A stretch of 64,000 nt of DNA from Thermoleophilaceae bacterium (GCA_030446485.1 JAUJNF010000002.1:124001-188000); one strand, 5' to 3'; numbered from the stretch's first letter, positions 32,109 through 41,831 are shown. A program made the numbers and translations. Notes: a model not told the origin generated them from the sequence alone.

Positions 32109-32800
32109 CCATGAGCCTGTCAAAGGACGACTGGGTGCGCGCCGCCCTGTTCGCGATCGCCGAGGGCGGGGCCGCGGCGGTCGCAGTCGAGCCGCTGGCC
32201 GAGCGGCTGGGAGCCACCAAGGGCAGCTTCTACTGGCACTTCCGCAACCGGGAGCACCTGATCGCCAGTGCACTCGAGTTCTGGGAGCGCGAGGGAACGG
32301 ACGACCCGATCGCCGAGCTCGCTCCCGTCTCAGACCCCGTCGAACGGCTCCGCCGCCTGCTCGAGATCGCGATCGGCTACGAGGACGACGACGCCGCCGG
32401 ACAGGCGGACGTCGGCCTGCTCGCCGCGGCCAACGACCCGGTCGTCGGACCGGTGCTGAGGCGGGTAGCCGACAAGCGGCTCGACTTCCTCGAACGCATC
32501 TTCACCGAGCTGGGATTCACCGCCGGCGAGTCGCGCCACCGGGCCCGGATCGCCTACAGCGCCTTCCTGGGCTGGTTCGAGCTACGACGCGTGGTCCCGA
32601 ATCGGACGCCGCTCGGGCGCGAGCGGGCGGCTTATGAGCGCGCGGTGCTCAACCTCGTGCTCGCCGACCTGCCGGGCGGTCCACCCGCTAGGCCGAACAC
32701 CCCTGCGGAGCTCTCGGCGCGCATCGACGCCCGCGGAACTGCGGAGCTTGGAGAACCGAGCGAGGTCGCAGTCCGGGCCGTTCGCGACTCCGGCGAGTGA
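32105..32800 (+). CDS. TetR-family regulator with C-terminus replaced/extended by an antitoxin C-terminal tail
   Basis: TetR HTH 'LAERLGATKGSFYWHFRNREHLIASALEFWE'; last about 34 aa 'TPAELSARIDARGTAELGEPSEVAVRAVRDSGE' identical to the C-terminus of the antitoxin at 28053-28286. Confidence 0.88.
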   Translation: MAMSLSKDDWVRAALFAIAEGGAAAVAVEPLAERLGATKGSFYWHFRNREHLIASALEFWEREGTDDPIAELAPVSDPVERLRRLLEIAIGYEDDDAAGQADVGLLAAANDPVVGPVLRRVADKRLDFLERIFTELGFTAGESRHRARIAYSAFLGWFELRRVVPNRTPLGRERAAYERAVLNLVLADLPGGPPARPNTPAELSARIDARGTAELGEPSEVAVRAVRDSGE

Positions 32801-33194
32801 CCGTCATCGACACCTCGGGCGTGGTCGATTTCCTGCTTGGCGCCGGGGTGGCCGCGGACGTCGAGGCGCTCATGGTCCGGGAGGGCGAGCTGGTAGCCCC
32901 GGATCTGCTCGTCTTCGAGGTGCTCGCCGTAATCCGCCGTCAGACCCTTCGCGGACGGCTCGGCGCGGCCCGCGCCGCCGGGGCCGTGCAGGACCTCGGC
33001 GACGTGCCGATCGAGCTCGTGCCCTCACTCCCCCTGCGCGGCCGGCGTGGGAGCTGCGCAACAACCTGACGGTGGCCGACGCGCTGTTCGTGGCCCTCGC
33101 CGAACAACTCGGAGAGCCGCTGGCCACCAAGGACTCGGCCTTGGCGGCCGCAGCCGCGAAACACGCTGCGGTCGAGGTGGTACTGCTCCCGAGC
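32699..33194 (+). repeat. Direct repeat copy B
   Basis: See copy A at 28185-28680; offset 4514 bp. Confidence 0.92.
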
Positions 33195-33203
33195 CTGCTT
33201 TGA
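32797..33203 (+). pseudogene. VapC-like PIN-domain toxin, copy B, same frameshift as copy A
   Basis: First 90 aa identical to 28283-28555, C-terminal half in the second frame; GTG start overlaps stop of the TetR chimera. Confidence 0.8.
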
Positions 33204-34515: not shown

Positions 34516-35856
34516 TCAGGTGGGACTCAGGGTCTCGGTCGCGCGGGCGAGCAGGACGGCGAGCTCGCCGCCGTGGCCGGGACGCGCGAGCGGATCCTCG
34601 ATCAACGCCGAGAGCGCGAGGTCTATTGCGTCTAGTCCAGGCTCCTCGCCGCGGATCAGGCGCATAAGTTCATGCGCGGTGGGTGCAATGCCCTGGCCAA
34701 CGATCTCAAGGCCTTCCTCGTCGCTCGGCGCCGCAGGCTCGGGCTCGACGAGCCAATCGCGATCGACACCACCCGCGCGCTCGAGATAGCGGCGGGCATG
34801 CTCATAGACCTCTTCACAGGTCCCGACCCCTGACGCGATGTGCATTACCCAGACCGCGAGTAAACCGCTCGGCTGGTGGCTCGCGTGCTCGATCTGGTGG
34901 AGGAGAGCGGAGGGCTGCCGGGCACACCAGGCCCGCGCGCCCGGAACGTCATGCATGAGCGCCGCAACGAGCGCCCAGTAGTAGCCGATGTTGTCGACGA
35001 TGTACTCGGTCCACTGGCAGCCTGAACCCGTGTTCTCTCCGAGGCGGTCGCCAATGTGGTTGAGCTCCTGCCAGCGGGCAAGCAGCTCGAGCGAGCGGTG
35101 GCCATGCTGAGGCGCCAGCGCGGCAACGAGGCCCAACTCGATTGCCTCGCAGCCCGCCGCGGCCATGTATGAGCCGTACGCCTCCTCGCGCGGCTGTGGC
35201 GGCTCGAGGTATCGGTTCGGGGGCGCCGAGCGCCCGCTGAGCTCGGCCTCCCATAGTTCGAGCAGCTTGCGCCGAAGACTCGGCCGAAACTCGCGAGAGG
35301 CAAGGGCCAGCAAGGCGTAGGTTCGCTCGCTGAGACCGCGAAGGCCCTTCGCTTGCGCATGTCGCAGAAGCGGGTCGACGAGTTCCTGCGGCCAGGGTCC
35401 CGCTATGAGGAGACGACCCAACCCAAACCCGTCGAGCTGGTCGCTCACGCGAGCATGCACATCGATGAGCTTCTCGAGGAATTGCCCGGGTTCCCCGCCC
35501 CCCGACAGCAGGTGAACGGAGTAGTTGTGGCTGCCGAAAGCCTGCTCGACCTCGGTGGGGCGAGCGGACGCGATGCCACCCTCAACGACGAGGTGGAACA
35601 GATGAAGTGGCTGCGCTGCACCTTGGCGGGACAGGAGCTTCAGGACGTTGGCGGCAAGCCCTGTACTCGCCGTCGATTCCACTTCAAAGGCCACTAGCGG
35701 CGCGTCGTCGTGCGGTCGCCGCAGCCAGACCACATCCACCGCAGCTGCCTTGCCCGGTACGCGCCACTCCCTGACCGCCGTGTACCCGAGCGGCGCGGCG
35801 AGCGCCTCGAGCGCCTCGAGGATCTCGACGCCCGGTTTCAACACATGCTCTGGCAT
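34516..35856 (-). CDS. Putative PD-(D/E)XK nuclease-like N-terminus + large helical domain, unknown function
   Basis: 'VDVVWLRRPHDDAPLVAFEVESTASTGLAANVLKLLSR' resembles the D...ExE/K core of REase-fold domains; internal ATG at 35856 chosen as start. Confidence 0.6.
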   Translation of the reverse strand: MPEHVLKPGVEILEALEALAAPLGYTAVREWRVPGKAAAVDVVWLRRPHDDAPLVAFEVESTASTGLAANVLKLLSRQGAAQPLHLFHLVVEGGIASARPTEVEQAFGSHNYSVHLLSGGGEPGQFLEKLIDVHARVSDQLDGFGLGRLLIAGPWPQELVDPLLRHAQAKGLRGLSERTYALLALASREFRPSLRRKLLELWEAELSGRSAPPNRYLEPPQPREEAYGSYMAAAGCEAIELGLVAALAPQHGHRSLELLARWQELNHIGDRLGENTGSGCQWTEYIVDNIGYYWALVAALMHDVPGARAWCARQPSALLHQIEHASHQPSGLLAVWVMHIASGVGTCEEVYEHARRYLERAGGVDRDWLVEPEPAAPSDEEGLEIVGQGIAPTAHELMRLIRGEEPGLDAIDLALSALIEDPLARPGHGGELAVLLARATETLSPT

Positions 35857-36162
35857 CGCCGTCCAGTTTGCCGCCAGAGGCGGCGGATTTCTGCAAACCT
35901 GCGCGTCTCTGGCTGCCCTTGCTGTCTCCGGCACATGAGCCCCGGTCGTCTCGGCGACAGGCAGCGCATCCGCGGCCTCGATGCACCCAAGCCCGACGAA
36001 GGTGCGAGGATGCGAAAGCAATAACGGCGCGGCGGACGATGCTACGCAGTCACCCGGGTCGCCAGCCGGGCCGTCCGGGCGCCGGCCTAGCGTTGGGAGC
36101 GCGGTGGTCCTGAGGGCAGTCTTCACCTGGTCGAAGCGACCCGCTCTCGCGGGGAGAGCCTG

Positions 36163-37527
36163 ATGGGTGCCCTCGCAACTCTCGCCGGCGCCGAGTCCCC
36201 GGCTGTTGCGGACGCTCAGCTGGCTGCTCGACTCGCCGACTTGCAAGCAGAACGCGGCCACAAGTGGGCCGAACCGAACGACTCTGAGAGCCACCGCCTG
36301 CACGGCCTCTTCCAGTACCCCGCGATGATGGTGCCTGAGATGCAGCACGACATCCTCGATGTGCTCCAGGCCAACTTCGAGGCCCCGCGCGTCTGGGACG
36401 GATTCGTCGGCTCGGGCACGACTCTGGCCGAGAGCATGAACCTCGGCCTCGATTTCGTCGGGCGCGACATCAACCCGCTCGCGATCCTAATCTGCCGCGT
36501 GAAGGCGGGCCCCTACCACGTCGGGGCGTTCGCGGCCTCGGCCCAGCGGGTCATTGACCGCTCCAAGGCCGACCCCGACCGCAAGCTCGCCGTGCTCTTC
36601 CCGAACTGGCAAAAGTGGTTCCGGATGAGCGTTGCCTTGGCGTTATCACGAATCAGGCGCGCCATCCTCGTCGAGCCCAACCCAGCGTGCCGGCGCTTTC
36701 ATTGGCTCGCGCTCGCTGAGACGGTCAGGCTTTGCAGCAACTCTCGGCTGTCGACCGTAAAGCTGCACGCGCGGCCGAGCGACGAGGTGAAAAGTCGCGC
36801 GATCGACGTCTATGGCACTTTCAGTACAACACTTCTGCGCAACCTCGAGCGGCTCACCGAGCAAGGGGAGTGGCTTGCCCAGGAGGGGCTCCTGAACAGC
36901 GGGTACTACACCGGCCAGATAGCGCTTGAACTCGGTGACATCCGAGACGCGCCCGCCTCCACCGAACCGTGCCACATCGCGCTTACGTCCCCTCCCTACG
37001 GCGACAACACGTCGACGGTCACCTATGGTCAGCACGCCTACCTTCCGCTTCGCTGGATCGACCTCCGCGACATAGACCCCGCCGCCGACGACAAGGTGCT
37101 CGCCAGCACTCACGCGCTCGACTCCATGAGCCTCGGAGGGTCGCGACGCCTCGATGAGCGAGATGTCGAGTCCCTCTGCGAGGCGGCGCCGTCGCTCAAG
37201 GCGACCTTCGAGCGGCTAGCGCCGCTGCCGCGCGACCGCACGAACCGAGTCGCCGCCTTCTTCCGCGACTTCAGAGACGCGCTACCGTCGGTCGTCGAAC
37301 GGATTGAGCGGGGCGGGGTAACGGCGTGGACGGTCGGCAATCGTCAGGTCGGCGGGGGTCAAGTCCCCCTAGACGACGCGCTCGTCGAATTGCTCGAAGC
37401 TCACGATGTGAGCCCCATCTGTCGGCTCGAGCGAACGATCCCGGCGGGTCGCAAGCGAATGGCGGTCCGCAACGGCCACGCCGATACGATCGCCGGCGAG
37501 ACCGTGCTCGTCTTCCGCCGCAGCTAA
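36163..37527 (+). CDS. Amino-methyltransferase-type DNA methylase
   Basis: SAM-binding 'VWDGFVGSGTTLAESMNLGLDFVGRDINPLA' and catalytic 'ALTSPPYGDNTSTVTYG'. Confidence 0.88.
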   Translation: MGALATLAGAESPAVADAQLAARLADLQAERGHKWAEPNDSESHRLHGLFQYPAMMVPEMQHDILDVLQANFEAPRVWDGFVGSGTTLAESMNLGLDFVGRDINPLAILICRVKAGPYHVGAFAASAQRVIDRSKADPDRKLAVLFPNWQKWFRMSVALALSRIRRAILVEPNPACRRFHWLALAETVRLCSNSRLSTVKLHARPSDEVKSRAIDVYGTFSTTLLRNLERLTEQGEWLAQEGLLNSGYYTGQIALELGDIRDAPASTEPCHIALTSPPYGDNTSTVTYGQHAYLPLRWIDLRDIDPAADDKVLASTHALDSMSLGGSRRLDERDVESLCEAAPSLKATFERLAPLPRDRTNRVAAFFRDFRDALPSVVERIERGGVTAWTVGNRQVGGGQVPLDDALVELLEAHDVSPICRLERTIPAGRKRMAVRNGHADTIAGETVLVFRRS

Positions 37528-39963
37528 ATGCGCTTCGAGATCGACCCCAGGGTCGTCTTTCGGCTGGGCGAAGACCTGATCTCTGATGACGCTCAGGCGA
37601 TCTCCGAGCTCATCAAGAACGCCTACGACGCCGACTCCCCGTGGGTCCGCGTGCAGGTTGACACCCGCGAGGAGATCGAGTCTCTCCACGGTGGCGAACG
37701 ACTCGTAGGGTGCGTCACCATCGAGGACGCCGGCACAGGCATGACCTCCGAGCAGGTTGAGCACGGCTGGTTGCGCATCGCCGTCTCGGACAAAAGAGCG
37801 CTGAAGCAGGCGGGCAGAACCACGCCCAAAGGGCGGACGCCGTTGGGAGACAAGGGCCTTGGCCGACTCGGCGCGCAGCGGCTCGCGGACGAAGTGGAAC
37901 TCGTAACGAAGGCGTCCGGGGAGGACGCTTTGCGGGTCCGCTTTGCATGGCCCGACTTTGCCAGGCACGACACGCTCGGGCGGGTCCCTGTCGACATTCG
38001 AGAGGCGTCCCGCTCTCGAAACGGGACGACGGTACGGCTCCTTGGGATGCGCCAACGGGAATACTGGGCGCCCGGCGAAGGCGAGCAATCACGATCACGG
38101 CGACTGCTGTCGGAGCTATCCCAGATCGTCAGCCCTTACGAGGGCGTCAGGGGCTTCGATATCACGCTCAGCGTCGACGGAGTCTCGCTCGACCTCTTCT
38201 CGCTGACCGCGCGGCTCCGCGATACGGCCCAGGTTCGATACGCGCTCCAGTTCGATGGCCAGGAGATGAAGGTAACGGGACGGATGCGCCTCGCATTTTT
38301 GCAGCCCAATCGCAAGAGCGGCCCGGAGGTTGAGAACTATCAGCGCTTTGCGCTCCACGACGAAGGCGGAGCGTTTCGGCGCTATCTAGAGGAGCGGGCA
38401 ACTGCAACCGAGTGGGGGTTCCGAAAGCCGCGATCGAAGAAGGCGTTCGTCGAATGCAGCTGGACGATCGGGCCCGACGACTTGGGCGAGCTCTACGTCG
38501 CAGACGGTGAGCTGATCTCTCCGGGGCCATTCCACGGCGAGGTCGACGGCTACGACCTCGGGCACGCAAGTGCAGCCGAGCAGGACGTGATGAACACCAC
38601 CGCCGAGTACCGCAACATCGTCAAGTCGATCGCGGGGGTCCGCGTGTATAGGGATGGGTTTCACGTTCGAACCGATCGGGACCCCCTCCGCCTCTCGGCG
38701 GCTGCCTCATCGGCGCGCGGAGCCTACGCGCTGAAGCCTGATACGACGAGCGGCTTCATCGCGATCTCGGCGCGTGACAACGCGATGCTTGGTGAGAAGA
38801 CGGACCGCGAGGGTTTCCAGGACACCCCCGCGTTCAGGAACTTCACGGGCTTGCTCCAAGTATTCAGGGCCGAGGTCGACAGCTTGCACAACGAGGTTCG
38901 ACGCGCCTGGCTCGCCTACCAGTCTGAGCGCCTCGGCGAGGAGGCAGGGGTCGACGACGAGGAGGAAACAGAAGGCGCTGCCGAGCGGCTTGCCGACCAA
39001 CTCGATAACGCGCGCGCACTGGGCTCCCGTGTGGCGGCGGTCAACGCGAGGCTTGTGGCCGTCGCCACCCAGTCAGAGGCGGCGCTCGAGCACGAGCCTG
39101 ACCCCGAGGCGCTGGCCGAGGCCGCCGAGGCCCTGCGGGCAGTAATGGCGGACGCCCGCGCCGTACTCGGCGAAACAGAGGCCTACCTAGGCGGCATCAC
39201 CGCCGCCGCAGCCCTGCCCCTCTTTATGGGCGTCGAGCTCACGGAGCTTCGTGATCAGATCGTGCTTTCCCAGGAGACGATGAGCCTCGGGATCACGGCA
39301 GAGGCGCTTGTGCACGAGCTGATGAATGTGTGCGATCAGTTGGAGTCACGCTGCACCGCTCTCGTGGAGAAGGTGGAGAACGACCAGCTCACACCGCGCC
39401 TCGCGTTGTCGTTCGCGGACTTCGTCCGCGCCTCGAGCCGGGCGCTGCGCAAGCAGGCCTCGCACTTGCAACCGGGCTTACGGTATGTGCGGGACCGCCG
39501 GGACACAATCGATATCGAGGAGTTCCTAAACGAGATCGCTGACCACTACGCGACTCGCTGGCGGGAGCAGCCGCTTGATATTGCGGTGAACGTGAAGGTC
39601 GGCTTCAGGATCGAGATGAACCGCGGCAAGCTGACCCAGATCCTCGATAATCTCCTTTTGAACAGCGAATACTGGCTTCGCGAGGGGCTCCGCAAGGATC
39701 TCGAGCGTGGCAAAGTCACGATCGAGGCCTCCCAGCCGTATCTGACGATCAGCGACAACGGCCCGGGTGTTACCCCGCGCCGCGCGAACCGCATCTTCGA
39801 CCCGTTCGTTTCTGGGAAGCCTGACGGGCGCGGCCTCGGACTGTTCATTGTTCGCCAGCTCCTCGACAGCGACGGCTGTTCGATCTATCTCGCCCCGGAC
39901 CTGAACCGGCGCGGCAACCACAGCACCTTCGTGCTCGATCTAGGTGGCGCCCTGGCGGAATGA
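37528..39963 (+). CDS. Protein with N-terminal HSP90/MORC-like GHKL ATPase and C-terminal histidine-kinase-like module
   Basis: N-box 'AISELIKNAYDADSPWV', 'IEDAGTGM', 'GDKGLGRLGAQRLAD'; C-terminal H-box-like 'AEALVHELMN', 'LTQILDNLLLNSEYWL', 'ISDNGPGVTPRRANRIFDPFVSGKPDGRGLGLFIVRQLL'. Confidence 0.88.
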   Translation: MRFEIDPRVVFRLGEDLISDDAQAISELIKNAYDADSPWVRVQVDTREEIESLHGGERLVGCVTIEDAGTGMTSEQVEHGWLRIAVSDKRALKQAGRTTPKGRTPLGDKGLGRLGAQRLADEVELVTKASGEDALRVRFAWPDFARHDTLGRVPVDIREASRSRNGTTVRLLGMRQREYWAPGEGEQSRSRRLLSELSQIVSPYEGVRGFDITLSVDGVSLDLFSLTARLRDTAQVRYALQFDGQEMKVTGRMRLAFLQPNRKSGPEVENYQRFALHDEGGAFRRYLEERATATEWGFRKPRSKKAFVECSWTIGPDDLGELYVADGELISPGPFHGEVDGYDLGHASAAEQDVMNTTAEYRNIVKSIAGVRVYRDGFHVRTDRDPLRLSAAASSARGAYALKPDTTSGFIAISARDNAMLGEKTDREGFQDTPAFRNFTGLLQVFRAEVDSLHNEVRRAWLAYQSERLGEEAGVDDEEETEGAAERLADQLDNARALGSRVAAVNARLVAVATQSEAALEHEPDPEALAEAAEALRAVMADARAVLGETEAYLGGITAAAALPLFMGVELTELRDQIVLSQETMSLGITAEALVHELMNVCDQLESRCTALVEKVENDQLTPRLALSFADFVRASSRALRKQASHLQPGLRYVRDRRDTIDIEEFLNEIADHYATRWREQPLDIAVNVKVGFRIEMNRGKLTQILDNLLLNSEYWLREGLRKDLERGKVTIEASQPYLTISDNGPGVTPRRANRIFDPFVSGKPDGRGLGLFIVRQLLDSDGCSIYLAPDLNRRGNHSTFVLDLGGALAE

Positions 39964-41831
39964 GCGAAGTTGCCGAGCTTGACCATGTTCGCCGACTGCT
40001 CGACTGCATCAAGGTCGAGCATGTCGTCTCGGTGGACGATCGCCACGCACCCCAGCAGGAGGTGGTCCTCACCCTTGCGCGCGAGCTGGACGGACCGGCC
40101 CGGGCGGAGCTACTCAAGCTGTCCGAGCGGGCAGAGGCCTTCGAGGAGTTCGACATCTTCCGCGACGAGTTGGAGGCTCTCTGGGACACCTACGCCCCAG
40201 ACCGTCACACCGAGATAGTTCAGGAAGTACAACGCCTGAGTCGCCAAAGCGACAAAGCAGACGACACCCGGGCACTGACGAAGCTCTCGTCGCTCGTGCC
40301 CGGCGACCGCTTCGAGACCGTCTCGCTCCACCAATGGGACAAACGGCGGGACGAGCTAATCAAGAGCGGCCAGCGGGCGCTTGTCCTCTTCGACCGAGAT
40401 TTCAGCGGCGAAGGGGGTGGCGCCCGCGAAGGAGACAAGCTCTTGCTCGAGCTGCAATCAGCGTCGGAAGGCAAGGACGTATGGACAGGGCTACTCACGC
40501 ACACCGCCACGCCGCAGGAGGAGCACGCGACATACCGCGAGCTGACCGAGACCGCGGATCCGCACCGGACCGTCGTCATCTCAAAAGCCAGGCTCGAATC
40601 GGGGGAGTTCCCCAAGCACCTGCGCCTCACGCTGCTCGCACCCCTCATGCACAAGCTAGTCAGCATCCTGGGCGACAAAATCGAGGCGATCCAGGGGGAG
40701 GCGATCGAGGAGGTGAAAGCGGCTCTTCCTGCCGAGCTCGAGTCGATGGTTTTCGGAGCATCACAGGCGGAGGGGGTCTGGGAGCCGGAGACACTGCTTC
40801 TCTTGTTCGGGCTGGTACAGCGCGACAAGGCGCGTGAGGAGATTTGGCAAGACGACGATGTTCACGAAGTCACCGCGCTCATCCGCTGCCTGAACGCCGT
40901 GAAGGTGGGGCTTCCGGTCGCGGACTCAGACACCCACAAAAATGCCGGTGCTGCGTCCGACGATCCGCCGAAGGGGAAAGGGCGACCGAGCGAGCCGACC
41001 GGGAGCAAGGAAGCGGACGACGCCACCGCCGAAGACGAGGCGGAGGTTGCCACCGATCCGAACTCCGCTCCGCGCTTCTACCAGCGGCTACAGATCTACG
41101 AGAAGATCGACGTTGTCAACGGTCTCCACATGCCCGTCGAGTGTGGGGACGTGTTCGACAACCGCGAGGAGTCCGCGAAACGCCGCAAGACCTGGATCGT
41201 GATTGCCCAGCCTTGCGATCTCGCCCTACGCGCGGACGGCAAGCGCGGAGACTTTCCGATCACCCACGTCGTCGTGTGCCCGGTGGAGCGCCAGCCCACG
41301 AAGGGTCCGCATGCGAATCACTTCCAACTGCCGCACTTCGACGAGCTAGGGCGCCCGTACGTCGCGAAGCTGAACCAGGCGCGGTATCAACGGGTCTGCC
41401 TACTCGACTTCTGTGTCTTTCGACCGGACGGGGTCGGCGTCCTCGACGTCGAGGACACAACGCCGGAGCGAATCCTCGAGGGGTGGAGCACGCGCCACGC
41501 CCTGCTGCAACAGTCGGCCAGGCAGGTGATCGAGCTGGCTGGCCAGCACGAGTCGCAGCTCGCACGGCTCAAGAACCTTTCTGAGAGCGCCCCCAGTGAC
41601 GACGAGATCAGCACGCTCGCGAGCGCCATCCTCGAGGCGATCTCGACAGACCACGCCCGGCCCCCATTTGTGACGGCGATAGATCCGCAGACGAAAACCA
41701 TCGACGCGGGCTGCCAGCGCGTGGCCCGTCTCTCCGCGGACTACGCCCGCGCTCTGCTGGCGGCCTGGGGTAGTCATCTGACCCGGCCGGTGCTTCCCTA
41801 CAACCTGACTCGCCAGCCGACGGACCATTGA
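39960..41831 (+). CDS. Receiver-like N-terminal domain + C-terminal unknown domain with 'WIVIAQPCDLALR' motif
   Basis: 'VEHVVSVDDRHA' (acidic pair), 'RALVLFDRDFSG' (candidate phospho-Asp), 'GLLTHTA' (T), 'TVVISKARL' (K): the order expected of a response-regulator receiver. Confidence 0.72.
   Translation: MSEVAELDHVRRLLDCIKVEHVVSVDDRHAPQQEVVLTLARELDGPARAELLKLSERAEAFEEFDIFRDELEALWDTYAPDRHTEIVQEVQRLSRQSDKADDTRALTKLSSLVPGDRFETVSLHQWDKRRDELIKSGQRALVLFDRDFSGEGGGAREGDKLLLELQSASEGKDVWTGLLTHTATPQEEHATYRELTETADPHRTVVISKARLESGEFPKHLRLTLLAPLMHKLVSILGDKIEAIQGEAIEEVKAALPAELESMVFGASQAEGVWEPETLLLLFGLVQRDKAREEIWQDDDVHEVTALIRCLNAVKVGLPVADSDTHKNAGAASDDPPKGKGRPSEPTGSKEADDATAEDEAEVATDPNSAPRFYQRLQIYEKIDVVNGLHMPVECGDVFDNREESAKRRKTWIVIAQPCDLALRADGKRGDFPITHVVVCPVERQPTKGPHANHFQLPHFDELGRPYVAKLNQARYQRVCLLDFCVFRPDGVGVLDVEDTTPERILEGWSTRHALLQQSARQVIELAGQHESQLARLKNLSESAPSDDEISTLASAILEAISTDHARPPFVTAIDPQTKTIDAGCQRVARLSADYARALLAAWGSHLTRPVLPYNLTRQPTDH

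Follow-up and report, generated by a model that had tools for sequence, protein, structure and literature searches.

A conserved DNA methylase, dual-GHKL histidine kinase and receiver-like protein in a Thermoleophilaceae genome form a candidate modification-linked defence cassette

The window analysed here, a stretch of 64,000 nucleotides from a Thermoleophilaceae bacterium (GCA_030446485.1 JAUJNF010000002.1:124001-188000), contains between positions 34516 and 41831 four open reading frames (ORFs), which are designated A (a divergent ORF), B (a methylase), C (a histidine kinase with two GHKL ATPase domains) and D (a receiver-like protein). A first-pass annotation had proposed these as a four-part, defence-like system, and all four ORFs were found in the window with the couplings it described: the TAA stop codon of B (37525-37527) is immediately followed by the ATG of C, and C and D overlap in an ATGA at 39960-39963. 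B, C and D are complete and intact ORFs on the + strand; the ORF of A is over-extended.

B (36163-37527, + strand) encodes an N4/N6 amino-DNA-methyltransferase of 454 amino acids, of which residues 42-453, nearly the full length, are matched by the PADLOC model MTase_II PDLC03360 at 1.1e-78; the match to Pfam N6_N4_Mtase (1e-4) stayed under the Pfam cut-off. Motif I (DPFVGSGT, residues 79-86) and motif IV (SPPY, 276-279) are both present, the latter being kept in 31 of 31 aligned relatives.

C (37528-39963, + strand) is a soluble protein of 811 amino acids and was correctly described as a dual-ATPase kinase, as Pfam identified two GHKL modules, HATPase_c_3 at the N-terminus (1.1e-14) and HATPase_c at the C-terminus (1.7e-18), both of which also occurred in all 18 relatives tested. 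The N-terminal module (37528-37962) is of the paraMORC/HgiDII restriction-enzyme type, with invariant N31, D67, G107, G110 and G112, and is closest to the BbrUII/HgiDII restriction enzymes (NCBIfam restrict_BbrUII, 1.3e-20, residues 2-140); the only PADLOC models matched by C were REase_II (PDLC03419) and CARF6. A helical segment between the two ATPase domains, predicted to comprise the dimerisation and phosphoacceptor helices (39265-39522), matches solved histidine kinases by profile and contains the predicted phosphoacceptor His596 (codon 39313-39315), which is kept in 31/31 close and 31/31 broader relatives. The C-terminal catalytic domain (39595-39945) carries N708, N712, D743, G767 and G769, and the GHKL residues of both ATPase sites are identical in 31 of 31 relatives, with the exception of G745 (29/31). 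HEF_HK (PF19191) was absent from C in Pfam at E<=1 and was weakly matched by two of 18 relatives (best E 2.7e-4).

D (39960-41831, + strand), a protein of 623 amino acids, was not matched by any family in Pfam, PADLOC or NCBIfam; none of 29 D proteins could be assigned to Response_reg_2 (PF19192), and a PDB profile search returned only a spurious coiled-coil match. Although family libraries do not recognise it, the earlier description of D as receiver-like is supported by conserved motifs and by an AlphaFold2 model built from 29 homologues (predicted local distance difference test score, pLDDT, 81; predicted template modelling score 0.72). In the model of the receiver-like domain (39960-40664), strands at residues 21-25, 118-121, 140-144, 174-180 and 204-208 alternate with helices, and a helical insertion lies between strands 1 and 2. 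D26/D27, D145, T180 and K209 sit at the ends of strands 1, 3, 4 and 5 and thus constitute a receiver signature. D26, D145 and K209 are invariant in all 29 D proteins and D27 occurs in 26 of them, D145 (codon 40392-40394) being the predicted phosphoacceptor. As judged from alignment and model, D keeps the catalytic residues of a receiver, which is new relative to prior art. A recognisable DNA-binding domain was not found in D by Pfam scans that included the 29 homologues.

The C-terminal half of D is, by its conservation pattern, an unnamed domain (GDIF...QPCDLxxR) of some 240 residues (41067-41786), in which G396, D397, F399, Q417, C419, R424, D483, G491, R587 and R609 are invariant in 29 of 29 proteins. 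Foldseek comparison of the D model with the PDB gave MazF of S. aureus, MazF proteins of M. tuberculosis and CcdB as the most probable matches, and among viral models PemK-like proteins occupied ranks 1, 5, 6 and 8. In addition, a related domain with the pattern GDI(L/F)...(V/L)(V/L)TPxCD and a terminal R..RL..PF...RxG is present in the receiver partners of distant dual-GHKL kinases, and the output domain of D is linked to it by profile comparison (P = 1e-5). In hhalign, 102 columns of this TPxCD domain could be aligned with MazF, at a score reached by 0 of 200 column shuffles. In D, the register of GDIF and of the second strand agrees with that of MazF; the output domain of D also has a long helical insertion. 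None of the 29 D proteins matched the Pfam model PemK_toxin at E<=0.1. We interpret the C-terminal domain of D as a domain of predicted MazF/CcdB fold with a different functional site, and as the most likely effector.

Two further observations concern receiver partners outside the close relatives of D. At locus L135 (genome G662, Acidimicrobiales), a frameshift-split Response_reg_2 (PF19192) protein precedes an ORF containing YLLCIQPLCD and RAICRL...RPG, which suggests, as far as these motifs can tell, that the output domain of D is also present in the published Response_reg_2 proteins. Some distant receiver partners gave weak matches to the PADLOC candidate PDC-M60B/C; this assignment was rejected, as no kinase matched any PDC-M60 model.

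A profile of C alone was scanned over 85,462 species genomes, yielding 80 loci at which homologues of B and D were then sought independently. All three genes were present in 34 loci, a total that includes the window and one plasmid copy each from Hymenobacter monticola and Rhizobium etli, and in 32 of these a single strand carries them in the order B-C-D. The two deviating loci are those of Paenibacillus (L043, order C-D-B) and Pimelobacter (L042, where B converges on C-D). In the Colwellia copy (L051), C and D are each broken into two ORFs. With ORF starts assigned mechanically, the gap between B and C ranged from -62 to +30 bp in 29 of the 31 non-redundant loci, and that between C and D from -86 to +57 bp in all 31. 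The pairwise distances of B, C and D were strongly correlated (Mantel r 0.80-0.89; 0/1000 permutations as high). B, C and D co-evolve, and the conserved unit consists of three genes, not four. Co-occurrence in other genomes, which the first-pass annotation had set as a test for all four families, is thus borne out for B-C-D and fails for the set that includes A.

Carriers of the cassette belong to no fewer than seven bacterial phyla (Bacteroidota, Pseudomonadota, Myxococcota/Deltaproteobacteria, Aminicenantes, Chloroflexota, Balneolota, Actinomycetota and Bacillota) and to two archaeal bins of Nanoarchaeia. Within the phylum of the window the family is rare, the window's own genome being the sole carrier among 398 sampled genomes when D was used as query and among 298 when the D profile was used. 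In the kinase tree, C of the window groups with copies from Aminicenantes and Deltaproteobacteria (support 90/84), and this trio nests in a well-supported group of seven that includes the archaeal copies and the two actinobacterial ones. This sequence-based placement is compatible with horizontal transfer, although contigs of metagenome-assembled genomes may be misbinned.

Individual copies displayed further peculiarities. Paenibacillus L043 and Halalkalibacter L050 have three related genes in common upstream of C and share the C-D-B arrangement, possibly representing a firmicute sub-variant with more parts. Both Nanoarchaeia copies contain a related ORF of 91 amino acids directly upstream of B (L024 6333-6608 and L041 6345-6620), which is possibly a regulator. 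The D homologue WP_243520915 from the Hymenobacter monticola plasmid (L014 10560-12356) is publicly annotated as 'cytochrome P450', a label that is almost certainly wrong.

Clustering of 255 flanking proteins did not reveal a constant accessory gene or nuclease near B-C-D, as no family occurred in more than three loci. As no constant extra gene stands beside the cassette, the effector should lie within B-C-D, and because neither a nuclease gene nor any other candidate travels with the three genes, the output domain of D is the best effector candidate. The flanks matched BREX proteins (BrxL, PglZ, PglX), DRT2, PtuB, PD-T7-1, PsyrA, pAgo, integrases and HNH nucleases; genes of known defence systems and integrases lie no more than three genes away from many copies, in agreement with the defence context that had been proposed for the locus. 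The kinase-receiver pair also occurs with other modification partners. Such a pair adjoins a C5 methylase, Vsr and a type II restriction enzyme in Rhizobium sp. BT03, and pairs also occur beside other N4/N6 methylases. On plasmid pC of Ensifer adhaerens (L016 10334-18328), a dual-GHKL kinase and a TPxCD partner of 680 amino acids are convergent to a group of genes that bear the annotations PAPS reductase, ATP-binding protein, DUF4007 and class V aminotransferase. This set probably represents DNA sulfur-modification genes, and the kinase-receiver pair is possibly the restriction arm of that system. The variety of modification partners argues, at the level of gene context, that the kinase-receiver pair responds to the modification state of DNA.

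Taken together, we tentatively favour, with somewhat less than even confidence, the reading that B-C-D is a self-contained, horizontally spread and modification-linked defence cassette, in which C senses unmarked DNA and phosphotransfer from H596 to D145 controls a MazF-fold effector in D. That C senses DNA, that phosphate is transferred, that the output is toxic and that the cassette acts against phages is here inferred from motifs, fold and context. B would methylate the host's own sites as a self mark, and the N-terminal GHKL clamp of soluble C, of the paraMORC/HgiDII type, would engage incoming or unmethylated DNA. ATP-driven closure of the clamp may then lead the C-terminal kinase to phosphorylate H596, from which the phosphate would move to D145 of D; the resulting change in the receiver could release or activate the MazF/CcdB-fold C-terminal domain. 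This output might hit a core process (RNA, DNA or topoisomerase), by which phage replication or cell growth would be stopped. The cassette would thus work like restriction-modification (R-M), with a phosphorelay as the restriction arm.

Several results weigh against this proposal. The Foldseek matches of D in the PDB reached probabilities of up to 0.99, but with E >= 0.08 and template modelling scores to the target of 0.40-0.53, and direct sequence proof that D is a MazF homologue failed, as the hhalign score of 17.4 was not above the best shuffles. By eye, the catalytic residues of MazF are apparently not kept in D, and canonical RNase activity of the output domain is therefore unlikely. In addition, the strict output motif occurred in only 16 of 55 distant receiver partners, with a looser form in some others, and distant receivers of about 210-230 residues have no room for such a domain, so that an output domain is not required in every case. 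The flanking genes fit a defence-island setting, their enrichment being stated without a computed background rate.

Alternatively, C and D may be a regulatory two-component system that tunes methylase B and nearby R-M genes in their expression or activity and has no effector of its own. Receiver proteins usually regulate, the published kinase family has been proposed to control R-M systems (PMC8011034), and distant relatives have short, receiver-only partners. However, a DNA-binding domain could not be recognised in D, a constant R-M nuclease that could be regulated is missing near B-C-D, and conservation of the output domain is high, with polar residues among the invariant ones. We regard this explanation as rather unlikely. 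We likewise consider it unlikely, and slightly more so, that the cassette is an unusual R-M system proper, in which the C-terminal domain of D, or D together with the clamp of C, is a new DNase acting on unmethylated DNA and phosphorylation only licenses cleavage. The resemblance of the N-terminus of C to HgiDII-type restriction enzymes, the dedicated methylase and the invariant Q, C, D and R residues of the output domain would suit such an enzyme, but neither sequence searches nor Foldseek revealed a nuclease fold or motif in D, and DNase activity is not known for the MazF/CcdB fold.

The remaining gene, A, shares its genomic setting with the cassette. Third-position GC content is 0.78 in A and 0.80-0.82 in B-D, compared to 0.96 in the adjacent housekeeping gene metK, and A-D were not found by tblastn in the roughly 10 kb fetched on the 3' side of metK from six relatives (metK 73-85% identical). 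Due to this lower value and the absence from the metK flank of relatives, the A-D stretch is probably, as far as composition and synteny indicate, an acquired island. The full ORF of A (34516-36348, - strand) overlaps B, and the first ~490 bp have no coding signal, with a coding log-odds per codon of -0.02 compared to 0.16 in the core of A and 0.17-0.20 in B, C and D. Judged by this composition, the true start is likely the ATG at 35856, giving an orphan, divergent gene of 446 amino acids (34516-35856). No homologues were identified in plasmids, viral contigs, 299 same-class genomes, other B-C-D loci or PDB sequences; three marginal partial matches in same-class genomes (E 0.001-0.006) have in-frame stops and were taken as chance. 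A was rejected as a core gene, as it adjoins no other B-C-D copy and has no detectable homologue. Its earlier designation as nuclease-like was not upheld: no match was obtained in Pfam, PADLOC, NCBIfam or PDB sequences, and a single-sequence model (pLDDT 41) begins with an alpha-beta-beta-beta-alpha-beta order that is just compatible with PD-(D/E)XK. A four-gene system with A as a PD-(D/E)XK nuclease and the real effector is very improbable: A shares the atypical composition of the island, its predicted element order could fit, and the metK flank of the six relatives lacks all of A-D, but no homologue of A was detected beside other cassettes or anywhere searched. A is probably a local cargo gene outside the core, and its identity as PD-(D/E)XK is unproven. 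Elsewhere in the window (32797-33203, + strand), a PIN-domain (VapC-like) toxin gene is apparently split by a frameshift, with its N-terminal half in the ORF 32797-33069 and its C-terminal half in the ORF 32634-33203.

Returning to B-C-D as a defence cassette, a broader generalisation is possible but doubtful, namely a class of immunity in which a His-Asp phosphorelay replaces the restriction endonuclease. In such systems a GHKL clamp-kinase would read the modification status of DNA and, through phosphorylation of a receiver, license a toxin of the MazF/CcdB fold fused to it, and the pair would couple to N4/N6, C5 or sulfur modification in bacteria and archaea. If true, this would bring together three usually separate themes, namely self-marking by DNA modification, two-component signalling and effectors with a toxin fold. 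The kinase/receiver family described in 2021 would gain a concrete output domain, with Q417, C419, R424, R587 and R609 of D as its residues, and the placement of such kinases beside many different DNA-modification genes would be explained.

Among known systems, Detocs is reportedly a two-component-like phage defence consisting of a kinase, a receiver and an effector of a nucleosidase or ATP-cleaving kind. B-C-D resembles it in this way of working; however, PADLOC matched neither C nor D to Detocs, the putative effector is of a different kind, and B-C-D includes a methylase. A dedicated DNA methyltransferase is shared with type II R-M systems, but a cognate restriction endonuclease is missing, as no recognised nuclease was identified in B, C or D (Pfam, PADLOC, NCBIfam, Foldseek) and none is constant nearby. 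Compared to two-component systems, the phosphoacceptor histidine and the DD, Asp, T/S and K of the receiver are in place in C and D. For the output domain of D, the fold of MazF, PemK and CcdB toxins (an SH3-like barrel plus a C-terminal helix) is tentatively predicted, whereas the domain yields no significant Pfam match, contains a helical insertion and is fused to a receiver rather than paired with a separate antitoxin. The BbrUII/HgiDII restriction enzymes (NF050001) share the N-terminal GHKL module (C residues 2-140, 1e-20), but only 140 of ~660 residues align, the score of 73.5 compares with a cut-off of 550, and C continues as a histidine kinase. ParaMORC ATPases, which have been placed in R-M systems (Iyer et al., 2008, PMC2292703), similarly combine an N-terminal GHKL ATPase gene with a DNA methylase; B-C-D lacks their superfamily II (SFII) helicase and a constant nuclease, and adds a histidine-kinase half and a receiver partner.

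The closest precedent are kinases with HATPase_c_3, HEF_HK and HATPase_c domains, which were tied to Response_reg_2 proteins in 91.6% of 644 regions, had methylases upstream and were surrounded by R-M genes, and for which an origin from paraMORCs and control of R-M systems were proposed (Bellieny-Rabelo et al., 2021, PMC8011034). No other known domain was reported in the Response_reg_2 receiver protein (PMC8011034). The locus had been called undescribed, which does not apply to the association of kinase, receiver and methylase published in that study; it does apply in that PADLOC gave no exact match to a named defence system and places neither C nor D in one. In the DefensePredictor study (PMC13092281), HATPase and REC are named in the legend of a figure that concerns predicted systems with unvalidated domains. 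The literature searched, which left most subscription papers and preprints outside its coverage, contained no description of the B-C-D subfamily or its output domain. Both the HEF_HK/Response_reg_2 pairs and B-C-D comprise a soluble kinase with HATPase_c_3, a phosphoacceptor histidine and HATPase_c, an adjacent receiver gene, an upstream methylase and an R-M or defence context. In contrast, C of the window has no HEF_HK match and D no Response_reg_2 match, the fixed partner is an N4/N6 and not a C5 methylase, and D possesses a defined C-terminal output domain. By these sequence comparisons, B-C-D is of the same general kind as the published system, yet lies outside both of its Pfam models.

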